Both the position numbers and the translations under genes were made by a program. 64,000 nucleotides of DNA. Source: Gammaproteobacteria bacterium. GTDB lineage: Bacteria > Pseudomonadota > Gammaproteobacteria > Ga0077536. A model generated the notes under the pieces. That model was not told the origin of the DNA. It did not search any database and was given only the letters and a program-made list of their open reading frames with translations. Positions 38,851 through 46,240 of this stretch are shown piece by piece. Positions within the stretch are counted from its first letter, which is position 1; every line of letters starts with the position of its first letter. Where the stretch lies: assembly GCA_021773835.1 (NCBI GenBank), contig JAJFJQ010000059.1:1-64000 (forward strand). Reading direction: 5' to 3'.

Positions 38851-39624
38851 TTAATTGCGCCGACGTGCGCGGATGGCCCCCAGACCTAGCAGCATGAGTG
38901 CCAGCGACGTCGGTTCCGGCACCGGCGTACTCGCAGCAGTGAGTGCGGAATCGAGTACCGATTGCCAGTCCGCAAGGCCGCTGGCGTCATCTTCCTCAAA
39001 CCAGTCGAAACCCAGAAGGGCGACATGGCCGGAGCCGACGCCAATTTGCATTACCGATGTTGCACCGGCATCTGAATATAAGTTGAGCGCGCCTCCGGGA
39101 AGCGATGCCGTGTTGACGAGTAAGGTACCGTCGAGATTTCCGAGTGGATCCGGTCCACCGGCGTATGCCGTGCCAGCTGCATCTGGCCCGAGGTTCGTAG
39201 TGCCCCCGGCTGTGAAGGTACTTTGCGTCAAAGCATAGCCGAAAATCGAATTTAGCAACCCGAGAGCGTTATTAGAGCCGTCTCCTGCAATGACCAGAAT
39301 GCCGCCACCGTTGACAAAAGACGCGATCGCGGCCTCCGCCGTAGCCGAAAGCGCGGCGGCAAGATCCCCGCGTTCCAATTCCGGGATAACGAGCGCAGAC
39401 GCTCCCGCAATCGCGGCGGTCCAAGCTGCATCTCCGCTGCCACTAAAATCAGTGACCGTGTGGCCTAGCATGACTAGATCGGCGCGCATATTGACGACTT
39501 CCCGGCCGGTATCACCAAAAGCGCCGTCGGAGAAATAGCCCACCGGAATAGCGTGCGCATTGATGGATAGCGTTGTCAGGAACACAAGGCAAAGTGCCAT
39601 CGTTAAGGAATTCGTTTTTTTCAC
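38851..39624 (-). CDS. PEP-CTERM sorting-domain protein with a ThuA/DJ-1-like body
   Basis: A 257-residue exported protein. The GTG at 39624 is chosen because a GGAGA site sits five bases before it; an ATG four codons upstream overlaps that site. A classic signal peptide (MKKTNSLTMALCLVFLTTLS, ending INAHA) is followed by a body with VNMRADLVMLGHTVTDFSG, FVNGGGILVIAGDG and VALLGFDWFEEDD, which looks like a glutamine-amidotransferase-type flavodoxin-like fold. The end is a canonical PEP-CTERM signal: PEPTSLALMLLGLGAI then RARRRN. A sigma-54 promoter lies 67 bases upstream and dyad sites further up. It is expected at the cell surface or matrix after exosortase cleavage. Confidence 0.85.
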   Translation of the reverse strand: MKKTNSLTMALCLVFLTTLSINAHAIPVGYFSDGAFGDTGREVVNMRADLVMLGHTVTDFSGSGDAAWTAAIAGASALVIPELERGDLAAALSATAEAAIASFVNGGGILVIAGDGSNNALGLLNSIFGYALTQSTFTAGGTTNLGPDAAGTAYAGGPDPLGNLDGTLLVNTASLPGGALNLYSDAGATSVMQIGVGSGHVALLGFDWFEEDDASGLADWQSVLDSALTAASTPVPEPTSLALMLLGLGAIRARRRN

Positions 39625-39690
39625 TGGTATCTCCATTAGGTTTAAGCCGCGTCAGACGAATAGGCGCGACATCGCGGTAGTTAGAGCCCG

Positions 39691-39706
39691 AGCAATATGC
39701 GTGCCA
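39691..39706 (-). promoter_or_regulatory. Sigma-54 (RpoN) promoter of the PEP-CTERM gene
   Basis: On the minus strand the sequence reads TGGCACGCATATTGCT, matching the consensus TGGCACG-N4-TTGCW at every fixed position with correct GG/GC spacing. Transcription would start near 39680, about 56 bases before the GTG start codon. This places the gene under an enhancer-dependent activator. Confidence 0.85.
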
Positions 39707-39756
39707 TAAAAATAAAGCTATTTAAATCAGTTAGTTGCGTAAATAATTAAAATTCC

Positions 39757-39775
39757 GTGTAAAGAATCTTGACAA
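39757..39775 (-). promoter_or_regulatory. Activator-site candidate 1 (17-bp dyad) upstream of the sigma-54 promoter
   Basis: The minus strand reads TGTCAAGATTCTTTACA within these bases, an imperfect dyad of the form TGTnAAGAnTCTTnACA. It lies roughly 75-95 bases upstream of the predicted transcription start, a normal place for an NtrC-family activator. A second copy with one difference in 19 bases lies exactly 100 bp away. Confidence 0.7.
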
Positions 39776-39856
39776 CTTTCCGAACAGTTTTACTGATCTG
39801 AGCGACATGAAAGTGGTAAATGTATTTTAAATCAAAGCGTTACGTTATCAGCCGGT

Positions 39857-39875
39857 GTGTAAAGGATCTTGACAA
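39857..39875 (-). promoter_or_regulatory. Activator-site candidate 2 (17-bp dyad), 100 bp from candidate 1
   Basis: This copy differs from the one at 39757-39775 at one of 19 positions (plus strand GTGTAAAGGATCTTGACAA against GTGTAAAGAATCTTGACAA). It sits 26 bases before the stop codon of the HyuB gene. Two equally oriented copies separated by about ten helical turns fit cooperative binding of an enhancer-binding protein. Confidence 0.65.
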
Positions 39876-39901
39876 AAAGGCGCCAAAAGGAAAAACCTTG
39901 T

Positions 39902-41668
39902 TCAAGCTGCGTTGCGGCGAAGTTCGGTGCGGCGCGCTATCGTTGCATCCACATCTATCACGGTCGCCTCATCCATGACTACACCGTAGACATTAAACGC
40001 GTGCTCGATAGTACAGAAATCATCTAGTACATCTTCTCTTACCTGGGCCGGGTCGCGATCTAGTGGATCTCCGTACCCGCCACCGCATGGCGTGTGGATC
40101 TCTATGCAGTCCCCTTTGAGGGTGCGCAAACCAGAAAACTTAGCCGGGATCGACTCGCGCGTGTCCGGATCGGTGATGTTGTATTTGACAACGTGTCCGC
40201 CATGGCCAGCCTCCCCACCGAGGATCCCCCACGGACGATCTTCGTGCCGATCGGATTCATGCGTCATGACACCATCGCTGACGAATCGCTGGGTCTTAAC
40301 GACACCGATGCCACCGCGAAACTGGCCGGCCGCTGGCAATACGTCGTCACGCAGTTCATAGCGGTCGCAAAATAGCGGTAGGTGCATTCCAAGGTCTTCG
40401 ATTGGATTGTTACGCGTATTCGCCATGAGGCAATCGATCGAATCCGGCCCGTCGCTCGTCGGACGCCCACCGTAAGAGCCTTCGTTGACTTCGAGGAACA
40501 CCCAAATGTCGCCGGAATCACGCAGTCCGGAGTAGGCGGCGAACGATAAGGCTGCGGAATTTCCTGCCGTGATGTTATTTGGTACCACCGGCGCGAGCGC
40601 CTTGATGATGCAGTCCACGATCCGCTGGATCTGGCCAAAGCGCGCTTCTGCCGCGTTCGGGAATTCGGGATTAAAAATCGAACCCATCGGTGCGACAACC
40701 GAAATTGGCCGAAACGACCCTTCGTTTTGTGGGACGTATTCGGCGTGCGTGTGGGTGTCCATCAACAAGGCGCGAAAGGCGTAGTAGCAGGCGACTTTTG
40801 TCGACCCTTCGAACGGGACATTGAACGCGGTCGGTACCTGATCCGCCGACCCCGTCAGATCCACCTCTGCGCTATCTCCGGCAATCCTCACAGTTACCTT
40901 AACCGGTAATGTCGTACCACGATTGCGGCCGTCATCGTCCATGAAACCCTCGGCGCTGTATTCACCGTCTGGGATCTCGGCCAAGCGGCCCCGTAACACA
41001 CGCTCTGAATAATCCATCAATTGATTACACGCCGCGCGCACCGTGTCGCGTCCATAACTATCCATTAATTCCGTAAAACGCCGCACGCCAAGTTCTGCCG
41101 CTGCGAGTTGCGCCTCTAAGTCACCCATCACCTGACCGGGGGCTCGAGTATTCGTTTCTATAAACTGCCACAACGCGCGGTTCAGAATTCCGCGTTCATA
41201 GAGCTTGATCCCCTTAAACAGCATCCCTTCTGCGTAGACATCAGCAACATCGATGATCAATCCAGGCGTTGCCGCGCCGATGTCCACGTGGTGCGCGGTA
41301 TTGGCCGAGAATCCAAATAGCTCACCGTCGTAGAACACGGGCGCTACAATGGCGATATCTGGCGAATGACTCGCACCATAATAAGGATGATTGTGAATCA
41401 CGATGTCGCCCGGCTCCCAATCACCGTGTAGCGTTTCTTCAATGCCACGTAGGTAACCTGGTAGCGATCCGATGTGCATTGGGGTCGAATCCGATTCACA
41501 CAAGGTGTTGAAATTGTGGTCGAACAGTCCCGCACCAAGATCCTGCGATTCCCGAATTATTGATGAGTAGGACATGCGGTAGAGCACGTGGCCCATCTCT
41601 TTGGCAATCGTATCCAACGCCCCGCCGATGACTTGCAATGAAATTGGGTCTACTGTGATTTCGCTCAT
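39902..41668 (-). CDS. hyuB: Hydantoinase B/oxoprolinase family protein (HyuB), pair 1
   Basis: A 588-residue HyuB-family protein starting ITVDPISLQVIGGALDTIAKEMG and containing the family blocks DPYYGASHSPDIAI-like (NHPYYGASHSPDIAIVAPVF near residue 97), AHHVDIGAATPG and CGGGYGDPLDRDPAQVREDV near the end. HyuB is the beta partner of HyuA in ATP-dependent hydantoinases, N-methylhydantoinases and 5-oxoprolinases, which open cyclic amides. It follows HyuA by 41 bases. The second pair is only about 4.5 kb upstream. No gamma subunit of the acetone-carboxylase type is present. Confidence 0.88.
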   Translation of the reverse strand: MSEITVDPISLQVIGGALDTIAKEMGHVLYRMSYSSIIRESQDLGAGLFDHNFNTLCESDSTPMHIGSLPGYLRGIEETLHGDWEPGDIVIHNHPYYGASHSPDIAIVAPVFYDGELFGFSANTAHHVDIGAATPGLIIDVADVYAEGMLFKGIKLYERGILNRALWQFIETNTRAPGQVMGDLEAQLAAAELGVRRFTELMDSYGRDTVRAACNQLMDYSERVLRGRLAEIPDGEYSAEGFMDDDGRNRGTTLPVKVTVRIAGDSAEVDLTGSADQVPTAFNVPFEGSTKVACYYAFRALLMDTHTHAEYVPQNEGSFRPISVVAPMGSIFNPEFPNAAEARFGQIQRIVDCIIKALAPVVPNNITAGNSAALSFAAYSGLRDSGDIWVFLEVNEGSYGGRPTSDGPDSIDCLMANTRNNPIEDLGMHLPLFCDRYELRDDVLPAAGQFRGGIGVVKTQRFVSDGVMTHESDRHEDRPWGILGGEAGHGGHVVKYNITDPDTRESIPAKFSGLRTLKGDCIEIHTPCGGGYGDPLDRDPAQVREDVLDDFCTIEHAFNVYGVVMDEATVIDVDATIARRTELRRNAA

Positions 41669-41709: not shown

Positions 41710-43809
41710 CTAGGCGTTTTCTGCTGCGCTACCGCGAATATGGATATTGCCAAAATCGCTGACCGTCGCCACGTAATTCGGTGGTACCAGTGAGGTGGAA
41801 TTGTGTTGAATGATCACCGCCGGTCCATCGATACGATGTCCGGCGAGTAATTGCTCTCTGGTGTAGCGCGGTGTGTCGTGCGTCTTACCGGAATCAAACA
41901 CCGTTGCCCGTGTGTACAAATAGGCCGCCTTCGGATCCGGGCTAACGGCTTTATCGAGCTCCGGCCACAGAAGTTTATCCGCTGGCGCCGAGCCAATAAC
42001 ACGCAATGTAATCACTTCAATCGGGGTGTCCTCGAACGAATGCCCGTAGTCGCTCTTATGCGCAAGATGAAAGCTTTCGGCTAATTGCTCGCGATTACCG
42101 TCATTTAGCGGTTCGTCCGGAAATTGCGCGCGCAGCTCAAAACCTTGCCCTTGATAGCGACACTCAGCAATACGCGTAAATCGGTGTAGGGAAGGATCGA
42201 TCCCATCATTCACCAGCGCCGTCGTCGCCTGCGAAACAAGCTCATCCATCTGACGATTAATCTGTTTAAGCTCCGCATCGGTACACGCAGACAGTACCAA
42301 CATGGCCGCAGCGGTAAACTCGTATTGGATATCGGTTGCGAGTAATCCTATCGCGGCGGTAATACCCGGCGCCGGTGGGACTATTACTTCACGCGCGGCA
42401 ACCGCATCAGCCAAAGCCAAACCGTGCAGTGGACCGGCGCCGCCGAAGGGCATCAGTGAATAATCGCGCGGGTCGATCCCGCGCGCAACCGAATTGGCCC
42501 GGATCGCCAAGGCCATATTGGAATTGATCACCCGAATAATGCCGAGCGCAGCATCGGTTACGCTCAGATCGAGCTTCGCGCAAAGGTTGTCTTCAATTGC
42601 TTTGCGCGCGAGTTCGGGATCTATCGATAAGCCGCCGCCAAGAAACTGGTCAGGATCCAAACGGCCCAGAACAACCTGTGCATCGGTTACAGTGGGCTCA
42701 GTGCCACCCCGGCCGTAACACGCTGGACCCGGCACCGCACCAGCCGAGCGCGGACCGACCCGAAACGCGCCACCACTATCAACGTATGCGATCGAGCCGC
42801 CACCGGCACCAATGGTTTGCAGATCGATCATCGGCGCGAGTACGGGATAGCCATCAACTTCGGTATCGCGGGGGTTCTTGATCCGCACTTGCCCGTCCGG
42901 AATGACGCTAATGTCCGCCGAGGTGCCACCGATATCGACAGTGATTAAATTCCTAGCGGCGGAAAGCTCACCACACCACCGGCCGCCGATAACGCCGCCC
43001 GCAGGCCCAGACATGAGGATCGTTACCGCCTTATTCGAGCACGTCTCGATAGTCGCAATGCCGCCGTTCGATTGCATGACCCGGATCGGTGCATGAATAC
43101 CAGCGGTAGCTAAGTTTGATTCCAAATTGCGTAAATAAGTCGCTACACGAGGGCCGATGAAGGCATTCATCGCCGCGGTCGAGAAGCGTTCGTACTCACG
43201 CATGACGTTGACGACTTCTGAAGAGCAATGGACGTAGGCGTCCGGCATGATCTCTTGGACGATCGCCTTCGCGCGTTGCTCGTGCGCATCGTTCAAAAAC
43301 GAAAATAGAAACCCGATGACGACGGACTGAATACCGCGCTTGTTTAATAATGCAGCGGCTTCGCGGACCTCGTCTTCCGCTAACGTGACAGTTGCAGCAC
43401 CGTCCGGTGGCATGATCCGCTCGGTGATTGGCAAGCGGTTACGCCGCCGGATCATGGGCTTCGTCTGCCACGGTAAGTCGAACTGCAATGAGAAATTATG
43501 TGGTCGCTTGTGTCGCGCCAGGTGCAAAATGTCGCGATAGCCGCGAGTGGTTAGCATCCCGACCTCGGCACCGCTGTGCTCGATCACGGTATTCGTCGCA
43601 ACTGTAGTGCCGTGGACAATTAGATCCAATTCACTCGGTGCCAAGTCCGCGTGCGTGCAGATTTCCTGGATGCCTTGGAGAACCGCTAAGGATTGATCTT
43701 GTGGTGTGCTCGGCACCTTATGCACATGTATCGAACGCGCACTCGCAGAGGACGATTCCAAGATCAAATCGGTGAAAGTGCCGCCGACGTCGACGCCGAT
43801 CTTATTCAT
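41710..43809 (-). CDS. hyuA: Hydantoinase A/oxoprolinase family protein (HyuA), pair 1
   Basis: A 699-residue HyuA-family protein. The ASKHA-type ATPase motifs are clear: IGVDVGGTFTDLILE at the start, TVDIGGTSADISVIPDG near residue 295 and GAGGGSIAYVDSGGAFRVGP near 335, followed by the PGPACYGRGGTEPTVTDA signature. An AGAGGT site precedes the ATG. Together with HyuB it should form an ATP-dependent ring-opening or carboxylating complex acting on a cyclic imide, lactam or ketone-like substrate. It shares architecture with the HyuA at 46305-48380 but differs widely in sequence, so the pairs probably have different substrates. Confidence 0.88.
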   Translation of the reverse strand: MNKIGVDVGGTFTDLILESSSASARSIHVHKVPSTPQDQSLAVLQGIQEICTHADLAPSELDLIVHGTTVATNTVIEHSGAEVGMLTTRGYRDILHLARHKRPHNFSLQFDLPWQTKPMIRRRNRLPITERIMPPDGAATVTLAEDEVREAAALLNKRGIQSVVIGFLFSFLNDAHEQRAKAIVQEIMPDAYVHCSSEVVNVMREYERFSTAAMNAFIGPRVATYLRNLESNLATAGIHAPIRVMQSNGGIATIETCSNKAVTILMSGPAGGVIGGRWCGELSAARNLITVDIGGTSADISVIPDGQVRIKNPRDTEVDGYPVLAPMIDLQTIGAGGGSIAYVDSGGAFRVGPRSAGAVPGPACYGRGGTEPTVTDAQVVLGRLDPDQFLGGGLSIDPELARKAIEDNLCAKLDLSVTDAALGIIRVINSNMALAIRANSVARGIDPRDYSLMPFGGAGPLHGLALADAVAAREVIVPPAPGITAAIGLLATDIQYEFTAAAMLVLSACTDAELKQINRQMDELVSQATTALVNDGIDPSLHRFTRIAECRYQGQGFELRAQFPDEPLNDGNREQLAESFHLAHKSDYGHSFEDTPIEVITLRVIGSAPADKLLWPELDKAVSPDPKAAYLYTRATVFDSGKTHDTPRYTREQLLAGHRIDGPAVIIQHNSTSLVPPNYVATVSDFGNIHIRGSAAENA

Positions 43810-44446: not shown

Positions 44447-46240
44447 TTAAGCGCGCAGCTTCTGCGTCGCCTCCATATCAACTTTCTTGGCAGCTTTATC
44501 AACCACTACGCCGTAGACGTCGCGCGCATGCTCTACCGAAATATACTCGTCGAGCACATCCTCGAGGACTTCCTCGGGCGTGCGGTCATGTGGGTTGCCC
44601 CAACCGCCGCCACCGGTCGTCTCAAATAAGAAGTTATCGCCATAGGCAAATCCATAGCGGCACAGCAGCGGGTTATGCCATGTACCAGATGCGTCAAAAC
44701 CGCCAATGACTTCGTCACGACCGTCGGCGTAAATATGCCGCAACCGTTGTGGCATGCTGCGCAATCCACCGTTAACTCCTGGGGTTCCTTCTAAGGTGCG
44801 CGCGGTTTCGACGTTCATTTGCCCTTCGCAGCGGAAGCGAACCTTAAGATTCGCACCGAGTCCGCCACGATGCCTGCCGGCACCCGCCGAATCCTGGCGC
44901 AGGTCGTAGCCTTCGTAGGCGATCATTGGGAACAACAGCTCGGCGGTCTCGGCCTCCATGTTCATGCAGTTACCGAGTGGATCCATGGTCACGTTCATAC
45001 CGTCACTGTAGGGCGTACCACCCCAACCACCGGCCGGAAGATCGGTAAACACATCGGTTACACCGTCAGGGTCGCGGACACCGCAGACGAACCAATTACC
45101 GTCGCCACAGGCCGACCCGACCGCGCGCTCCGGGATCGCCTTGGCGATTGTTTGCCAGATCGCGCTTGCCACCTTGGGCGCGGCGAGAACCGTGCAGCCA
45201 ATCGTTGGGCCGGGCCACACTGGATGCAGCCACGTCCCCTCTTTGGTGATGACCTTGATCGGCTCGAACATGCCTTCGTTTTGTGGCGCCGTCGGATCCA
45301 GGAAAAATTGCAACGAGTAGTACACCGCCGACATGGTGTTCGCGATCGGTGAATTGATCGCACCTAAACACTGCGGATCGGACTCGGTCAGATCAATGGT
45401 GATATCGGATCCTTTAACTGTCATCTTCACCCGAACGGTGATGGTGCCTTCTTGTTGGCCGTCGGTATCCGCATAGTCTTCGCCTTCGTAGACGCCATCG
45501 GGGATCCCTTCGATCTTCTTACGCACTATGCGCTCGGTATAGCCGATGAGTTCCTTCATCGCGGTGCGTACGGTATCGAGGCCGTAGCGTTCTGCAGCTC
45601 CCTGCATCTCTTTCTCAGCGGCCTTCAAGCAGCCGACATGCGCCTGTAAATCACCGCGGATAAAATGCGGCGTGCGAGTATTCGCCAACAAGATCTTCAT
45701 AATGTTGGGGTCGACTACATTGTTCTCAAAGGCCTTGATTGGCGGCAGTCGCAGGCCTTCCTCGGCAATGTGCGTACCCCAAGCCTGGCCGCCCGGCGCA
45801 CCACCGCCAAAATCCATCCAATGCCCTCGAGTAACCGCAAATCCCATCAGTTCCTCTTTAAAGAAGATCGGTTTGATCCAGGAAATGTCATTGATGTGGG
45901 TACCGCCGCAGTAGGGATCGTTGACGACGTAAATGTCGCCATCTTTCATATTCTCGATGCCGAACTCGTCGCGCACCGCGTGGGCACTAAACTTCATCGC
46001 GGCGAGATGTACTGGCACATTAGCGGCCTGACTTAGTAGACGCATATCGGCGTCATAGATCGCGTTGGAGAAATCAACCATGTCCGACAAGATCGGAGAA
46101 AACGACGCCCGCTGAAGTACCGCCGACATACGGTCGCAGGTGTACTCAAATAAATTGCGCAAGACCTCGAAGGTAACATGGTCGATACCCGTTACGCCGC
46201 CGAAGTCCGTACCTTTGTTGTGGAGTGCGCTCGTTTGCAT
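44447..46240 (-). CDS. hyuB: Hydantoinase B/oxoprolinase family protein (HyuB), pair 2
   Basis: A 597-residue HyuB-family protein: DHVTFEVLRNLFEYTCDRMSA near the start, VVNDPYCGGTHINDISWIKPIF near residue 107 and TTGGGGWGNPHDRTPEEVLED near the end. An AGGAG site precedes the ATG. It follows its HyuA partner by 64 bases and ends at a hairpin. Compared with the HyuB at 39902 it has a different N-terminus and C-terminal region, indicating an old duplication or independent recruitment. Expected to be the second subunit of an ATP-dependent hydrolase or carboxylase on cyclic amides or related compounds. Confidence 0.88.
   Translation of the reverse strand: MQTSALHNKGTDFGGVTGIDHVTFEVLRNLFEYTCDRMSAVLQRASFSPILSDMVDFSNAIYDADMRLLSQAANVPVHLAAMKFSAHAVRDEFGIENMKDGDIYVVNDPYCGGTHINDISWIKPIFFKEELMGFAVTRGHWMDFGGGAPGGQAWGTHIAEEGLRLPPIKAFENNVVDPNIMKILLANTRTPHFIRGDLQAHVGCLKAAEKEMQGAAERYGLDTVRTAMKELIGYTERIVRKKIEGIPDGVYEGEDYADTDGQQEGTITVRVKMTVKGSDITIDLTESDPQCLGAINSPIANTMSAVYYSLQFFLDPTAPQNEGMFEPIKVITKEGTWLHPVWPGPTIGCTVLAAPKVASAIWQTIAKAIPERAVGSACGDGNWFVCGVRDPDGVTDVFTDLPAGGWGGTPYSDGMNVTMDPLGNCMNMEAETAELLFPMIAYEGYDLRQDSAGAGRHRGGLGANLKVRFRCEGQMNVETARTLEGTPGVNGGLRSMPQRLRHIYADGRDEVIGGFDASGTWHNPLLCRYGFAYGDNFLFETTGGGGWGNPHDRTPEEVLEDVLDEYISVEHARDVYGVVVDKAAKKVDMEATQKLRA

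Follow-up and report, generated by a model that had tools for sequence, protein, structure and literature searches.

The PEP-CTERM gene and its upstream region

The window, the whole 64,000-nucleotide stretch of DNA analysed here, represents contig 55 of a 6.14-Mb assembly in 74 contigs. On its minus strand, a gene at positions 38851–39636 encodes a protein of 261 amino acids with the C-terminus VPEPTSLALMLLGLGAIRARRRN. Profile searches place the PEP-CTERM domain of this ORF above cut-off in both NCBIfam (29.3 versus 16 bits) and Pfam (26.3 versus 20.7 bits), in agreement with the original prediction, which had located a PEP-CTERM gene downstream of the promoter described below. The adjacent minus-strand gene (39902–41668) has its 3′ end at 39902 and bounds a 265-bp intergenic region (39637–39901, minus strand), which contains the entire regulatory array. 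This gene and two ORFs farther upstream on the minus strand (41710–43809 and 44447–46240) resemble what we take to be subunits of the hydantoinase/acetophenone-carboxylase type.

A sigma-54 promoter with an exact full-consensus match to TGGCAC-N5-TTGC (−24/−12), TGGCACGCATATTGCT, is located at 39691–39706 on the minus strand, and its TGG lies 70 nt from the start of the PEP-CTERM gene as defined by the longest ORF. A pattern scan returned this RpoN promoter, already recognized in the original prediction, as the only full match within the window, with 8 further matches at one mismatch (5.7 are expected at ≤1 mismatch). Four elements precede it on the minus strand. A proximal IHF-like box, CAACTAACTGATT (39725–39737; one mismatch to YAANNNNTTGATW), ends 18 nt before the TGG of the −24 element. 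The proximal enhancer, TGTCAAGATTCTTTACA, a motif 1 of the PrsR type (39758–39774), is positioned 51 nt before the −24 element and 20 nt from the proximal box. The distal enhancer, TGTCAAGATCCTTTACA (39858–39874), lies 151 nt before the −24 element, and a second IHF-like box, TAACGCTTTGATT (39830–39842; exact match), lies between the two, 15 nt downstream of the distal enhancer.

The two enhancers sit within 19-bp copies of GTGTAAAGRATCTTGACAA (39757–39775 and 39857–39875), which differ at one base and are offset by exactly 100 bp. Both copies had been described as dyads; the one-base difference and the 100-bp offset hold, but in the second copy, TGTAAAGGATCTTGACA, one position of an arm departs from the dyad, which amounts to one mismatch on one strand. 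When the window was scanned with the enhancer core, 14 matches were recovered at ≤3 mismatches (8.55 expected), and the two enhancer cores are the only ones among these 14 with 0–1 mismatches.

An asymmetric enhancer motif precedes PEP-CTERM genes

The pattern TGTMAAN5TTKACA has 20 zero-mismatch sites in the genome, and all 20 are asymmetric (TGTAAA...TTGACA or its reverse); a perfect-dyad reading of the enhancer was rejected on these grounds. The site has a defined polarity, with TGTCAA on the distal side and TTTACA toward the promoter, and its center shows no conservation genome-wide. A scan of the whole genome and of related genomes, as proposed with the original prediction, returned 20 exact copies of the oriented form TGTCAAN5TTTACA in this genome, compared with 0 for the control pattern read backwards, and 62 compared with 3 over 36 family genomes. 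ORFs above the PEP-CTERM cut-off lie downstream of 18 of these exact sites, a 19th (C71:119799) precedes an ORF with a PEP-CTERM-like IPLPAP tail, and the 20th (C47:275176) is unassigned. Random placement across the genome is thus not seen, which supports the assignment of the two window copies as putative PrsR-type enhancers.

Among the 20 ORFs of the genome that score above the PEP-CTERM cut-off, 14 are preceded by an enhancer together with a sigma-54 promoter, a 15th has two enhancers and no promoter at the threshold used, and five have no enhancer. Three of these five carry VPVPA-type or close-variant tails. The enhancer is mostly absent before those PEP-CTERM-like ORFs of this genome whose tails are VPVPA-type or similar (L125, L128, L129), C71:108432 being an exception. 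The VPVPA-tailed ORFs suggest a second, PrsR-independent set. The array in the window appears to be a well-formed and ordinary member of the known regulon, with an architecture that seems finer than previously described.

An IHF-like box at a fixed distance from the promoter

In reverse complement, the box between enhancer and promoter (TAACNNNTTGATT / YAANNNNTTGATW) corresponds to the IHF consensus, which is given as WATCARXXXXTTR (PMC7962754). When compared with WATCARNNNNTTR, the proximal box in the window shows one mismatch and the second box none. We analysed the position of the box in a set of 38 promoters, from which two rows had been removed (L014, gap 68, combining a distal site with a non-promoter, and L141, gap 118, a duplicate promoter). 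The box ends 17–21 nt before the −24 TGG in 16 of the 38 at ≤1 mismatch and in 25 at ≤2, compared with 0–2 and 2–4 promoters, respectively, in five other offset windows, and with 1 and 9 for the opposite orientation. It was not found at ≤2 mismatches in 13 of the 38. Outside the host genome, the corresponding counts at offset 17–21 are 7/25 (≤1 mismatch) and 14/25 (≤2). A Gibbs search to which no pattern was supplied returned the motif TAACTnATTGATT. Of its 34 copies, 24 lie at offsets 18–21, and its score is 294, versus 200–212 for shuffled spacers; for this search, the L141 promoter with gap 65 (doubtful PEP-CTERM ORF) and promoters with gaps >100 were further left out.

The distances from enhancer to box fall into classes of 20, 30–34, 40–43, 50, and 64 nt (n = 30), with quantised values of 20, 31, 41–42, and 50 nt, and are more tightly spaced than those from enhancer to promoter. 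In the three promoters at 64 nt (L001, L009, and L015, all from the host genome, gap 95), a further site with a TTTACA half lies nearer to the promoter by 23 nt. This nearer site is degenerate, its TTTACA half is intact, and from it the distance to the box is again the usual 41 nt. The box itself was also considered as a degenerate PrsR site, a reading that was rejected because sequence comparison reveals a different spacing (TAA-N4-TTGA, versus TAA-N6-TTGA on the reversed enhancer).

From the match to the consensus, we infer that IHF binds the box. The box could instead be recognized by a protein other than IHF, or serve the sigma-54 polymerase as a promoter-proximal element; contact with polymerase would also suit the fixed distance of 18–21 nt to the −24 element, and a C and a T are conserved within the N4 segment of the IHF consensus. 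We consider this rather unlikely, as TAACNNNTTGATT matches the full IHF consensus including the N4 spacing, a profile search located a gene for IHF alpha (ihfA) above cut-off in the genome, and polymerase contact leaves unexplained the copy of the box between the enhancers, which lies 46–77 nt from the proximal enhancer and has no adjoining promoter.

Enhancer-promoter distances follow the helical repeat

Both in this genome and elsewhere, the distances between enhancer and promoter are grouped in classes that differ by one helical turn. In the host genome, both the enhancer-promoter gaps and the pair spacings looked ∼11 bp apart, a regularity that was noticed before other genomes were searched. 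Exact sites recovered in family and class searches, which allowed gaps of 48–78, have gaps of 51–53, 61–66, and 71–76. Three promoters with a gap of 62 (G019–G021) look orthologous and are outside the PEP-confirmed set. For the 35 PEP-confirmed promoters with gaps of 30–100, the vector strength R at 10.5 bp is 0.72 (reached in 0 of 20,000 uniform draws), and the 23 of these that come from other genomes yield an R of 0.68 (1 of 20,000 uniform draws), with uniform-spacing nulls that ignore relatedness.

The limits of the gap clusters and the box pattern were first noticed in part of the same data. In a replication with the classes stated beforehand, four of eight new enhancer-promoter pairs fit (gaps 53, 65, 75, and 75) and the other four fall outside the classes (gaps 88, 95, 108, and 108); the replication loci are few and mixed, come from 11 genomes, and were filtered for PEP-CTERM by a regular expression that let in doubtful ORFs (L141, L207). 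The box is present at offset 17–21 in four of the eight pairs at ≤2 mismatches; one of these four, L197, has a better match elsewhere. Two orders searched as independent clades added nothing new: the order of G154 consists of one genome, and the order of G364 returned 1 match in 53. The analysis thus shows the elements with their orientation and position upstream of PEP-CTERM genes and, here as in other genomes, distances quantised at ∼10.5 bp.

A second enhancer farther upstream

Eleven promoters in the host genome have a second enhancer 100–133 bp farther out. The spacings of these 11 pairs are 100, 100, 111–114, 120–123, and 133 bp, with an R at 10.5 bp of 0.76 (18 of 20,000 uniform draws). 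A second box is located between the enhancers in 8 of the 11 pairs at ≤1 mismatch, where 1.06 would be expected and none of 1000 shuffles gave as many, and no box in the opposite orientation was found between the enhancer pairs of this genome. In pairs from elsewhere, a box between the enhancers is present in one of six, no more than chance.

An exact-pair scan of 84,980 species returned 15 stretches, six of which are labelled proteobacteria or Myxococcales (L109, L113, L114, L116, L121, and L122). The other nine (Chryseobacterium, another Bacteroidetes bin, Lactococcus, Adlercreutzia, a Clostridia bin, and WWE3) were treated as chance or unrelated. Six pairs in other records have spacings of 102, 112, and 122–125 bp, in agreement with those of the host genome, in a search that allowed 96–126 bp only. 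Among 369 class genomes, exact-consensus pairs at 96–126 bp were found in the host genome only, and the two-tier form at such spacing is therefore not general. This restriction to a single class genome would also fit an outer enhancer that is a functionless, decaying relic of a duplication, at an accidental distance of 100 bp. We regard such an origin as improbable, given that the host-genome pairs fall into turn-sized classes, that most of them enclose a box, and that such pairs exist in five other records labelled proteobacteria.

PrsR and its distribution among relatives

Profile searches identified a single PrsR above cut-off in the genome (C42:7519–8838; 692.5 versus 502.6 bits), with receiver, sigma-54-interaction, and Fis-type domains. 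It adjoins a PrsK (718.8 bits, cut-off 300), which is followed by a PEP-CTERM-system glycosyltransferase. The regulator to which the original prediction had assigned the enhancers is thus encoded in this genome. In total, 13 activator-like proteins give long matches to the PrsR model, and only this one exceeds the cut-off. A second NtrC-type regulator on the same contig (C42; L123:15780–17156), ∼7 kb from PrsR, is nearest to GlrR, although its 546.7 bits fall short of the cut-off (763). A similar weaker match to the PrsR model is found ∼8 kb from PrsR in the relatives G002, G004, G007, G018, and G020.

Across relatives, the presence of PrsR is weakly tied to that of the enhancer. Exact enhancers are present in 10 of 16 PrsR-positive and 7 of 20 PrsR-negative family genomes (p = 0.096). 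In combination with a sigma-54 promoter, the enhancer occurs in 7 of the 16 PrsR-positive genomes and in 2 of the 20 PrsR-negative ones (p = 0.026), several of the assemblies being incomplete. The exact site was not found in six PrsR-positive family genomes. In the 97% complete genome G035 (apparently UBA981; L114), no PrsR above cut-off was found, despite enhancers and sigma-54 promoters before its PEP-CTERM genes; an assembly gap, loss of the gene, or another activator could each account for this absence. Binding of the enhancers by another of the about a dozen NtrC-type activators in the genome, such as the GlrR-like protein 7 kb from PrsR, would be in line with the many sub-threshold matches, with G035, and with the weak association between PrsR and the site, but we judge it very improbable, as the phylogenetic profile of the site is reported to match PrsR/PrsK/PrsT exactly (Haft et al.; PMC1569441) and a PEP-CTERM gene in Zoogloea is reported to require PrsK-PrsR and RpoN (PMC9012009).

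Comparison with known sigma-54 systems

Haft et al. (2006) described a 17-nt motif 1, which ends in TTTACA, is sometimes repeated, and was predicted to be the PrsR site. Of 167 proteobacterial PEP-CTERM genes, 99 were reported to have it upstream, and the spacer to the sigma-54 motif 2 is 62.8 nt on average (range 32–92) (PMC1569441). The window array is alike in these features: TGTCAAGATTCTTTACA and TGTCAAGATCCTTTACA are 17-nt sites with TTTACA toward the promoter, the gap of 51 nt to the TGG of TGGCACGCATATTGC is inside the 32–92 range, a PEP-CTERM gene lies downstream, and prsR and prsK are found in the genome. Because Haft et al. had predicted both the site and PrsR as its binder, the original inference is supported and already published; the concrete motif that it offered for the PrsR regulon stands, but it is not new, having been in print since 2006 (PMC1569441). 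That paper summarizes the spacer as mean, SD, and range, and helical classes are absent; the terms IHF and integration host factor do not appear in its main text. The second enhancer 100–133 bp farther out in 11 promoters and the conserved box go beyond motifs 1 and 2.

The upstream activator site of NifA is TGT-N10-ACA. Neither window copy matches it, as both are TGT-N11-ACA with conserved inner bases, and the predicted activator is PrsR. The order of elements is nevertheless that of nif-type promoters, in which an activator site, an IHF site, and a sigma-54 promoter follow each other with bending in between; sigma-54 polymerase depends on activators of the AAA+ type, and the DNA that separates activator and promoter is commonly bent by IHF (PMC7962754, PMC7057263). 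The RpoN1-dependent pepA of Aquincola tertiaricarbonis is likewise a PEP-CTERM gene, with a mapped −24/−12 promoter (TGGCAC/CTGCTT) and, as here, a "previously predicted enhancer" upstream; as far as the available text of that report goes, the enhancer, its spacing, and bending sites were outside its study (PMC9850573).

Helical distance classes, the IHF-like box, and the second enhancer were not found in print in a search of mostly open-access literature, which leaves their absence unproven. PEP-CTERM literature that mentions integration host factor had, in the parts available, Geobacter biofilms and fruit-fly gut symbionts as its topics, and no test of direct PrsR binding to the enhancer was found in open-access literature. 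Taken together, the enhancer was described and PrsR predicted as its binder in 2006, while the likely bending sites and the spacing by helical turns appear to be previously undescribed.

A model for PrsR-dependent promoters

With a probability of roughly 0.78, we read the window gene as a member of the PrsK/PrsR regulon, controlled by a nif-like enhancer complex of PrsR, IHF, and sigma-54 polymerase that would assemble in helical register. In such a complex, PrsK presumably phosphorylates PrsR, as expected from knowledge of the family. PrsR, an NtrC-type AAA+ activator, would bind TGTCAA-N5-TTTACA at two places, and IHF or a similar bending protein would occupy the box between each enhancer and the parts downstream of it. 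The bends, together with the fixed helical register, would bring PrsR onto the RNA polymerase-sigma-54 waiting at −24/−12, and contact with PrsR would let the promoter open. The outer enhancer and its box would probably raise activator occupancy or sharpen the response, and selection would have maintained matching helical faces for all parts. We infer binding, bending, and activation from the sequence and arrangement of the sites.

The refined architecture, with its asymmetric site, fixed box, turn-sized distances, and optional outer enhancer, is testable by small mutations. Together, the promoters form a set of naturally occurring spacing variants on which DNA looping at sigma-54 promoters can be studied, and the architecture provides a sharper search pattern for surface and floc-forming proteins controlled by PrsR. 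More tentatively, and at somewhat less than even odds, PrsR promoters as a group may form a rigid enhancer complex, in which one or two PrsR sites alternate with IHF sites and all distances are locked to the helix, with the host genome mostly using the two-tier form. If so, the whole PEP-CTERM surface coat would be switched by stacked, bent PrsR assemblies.
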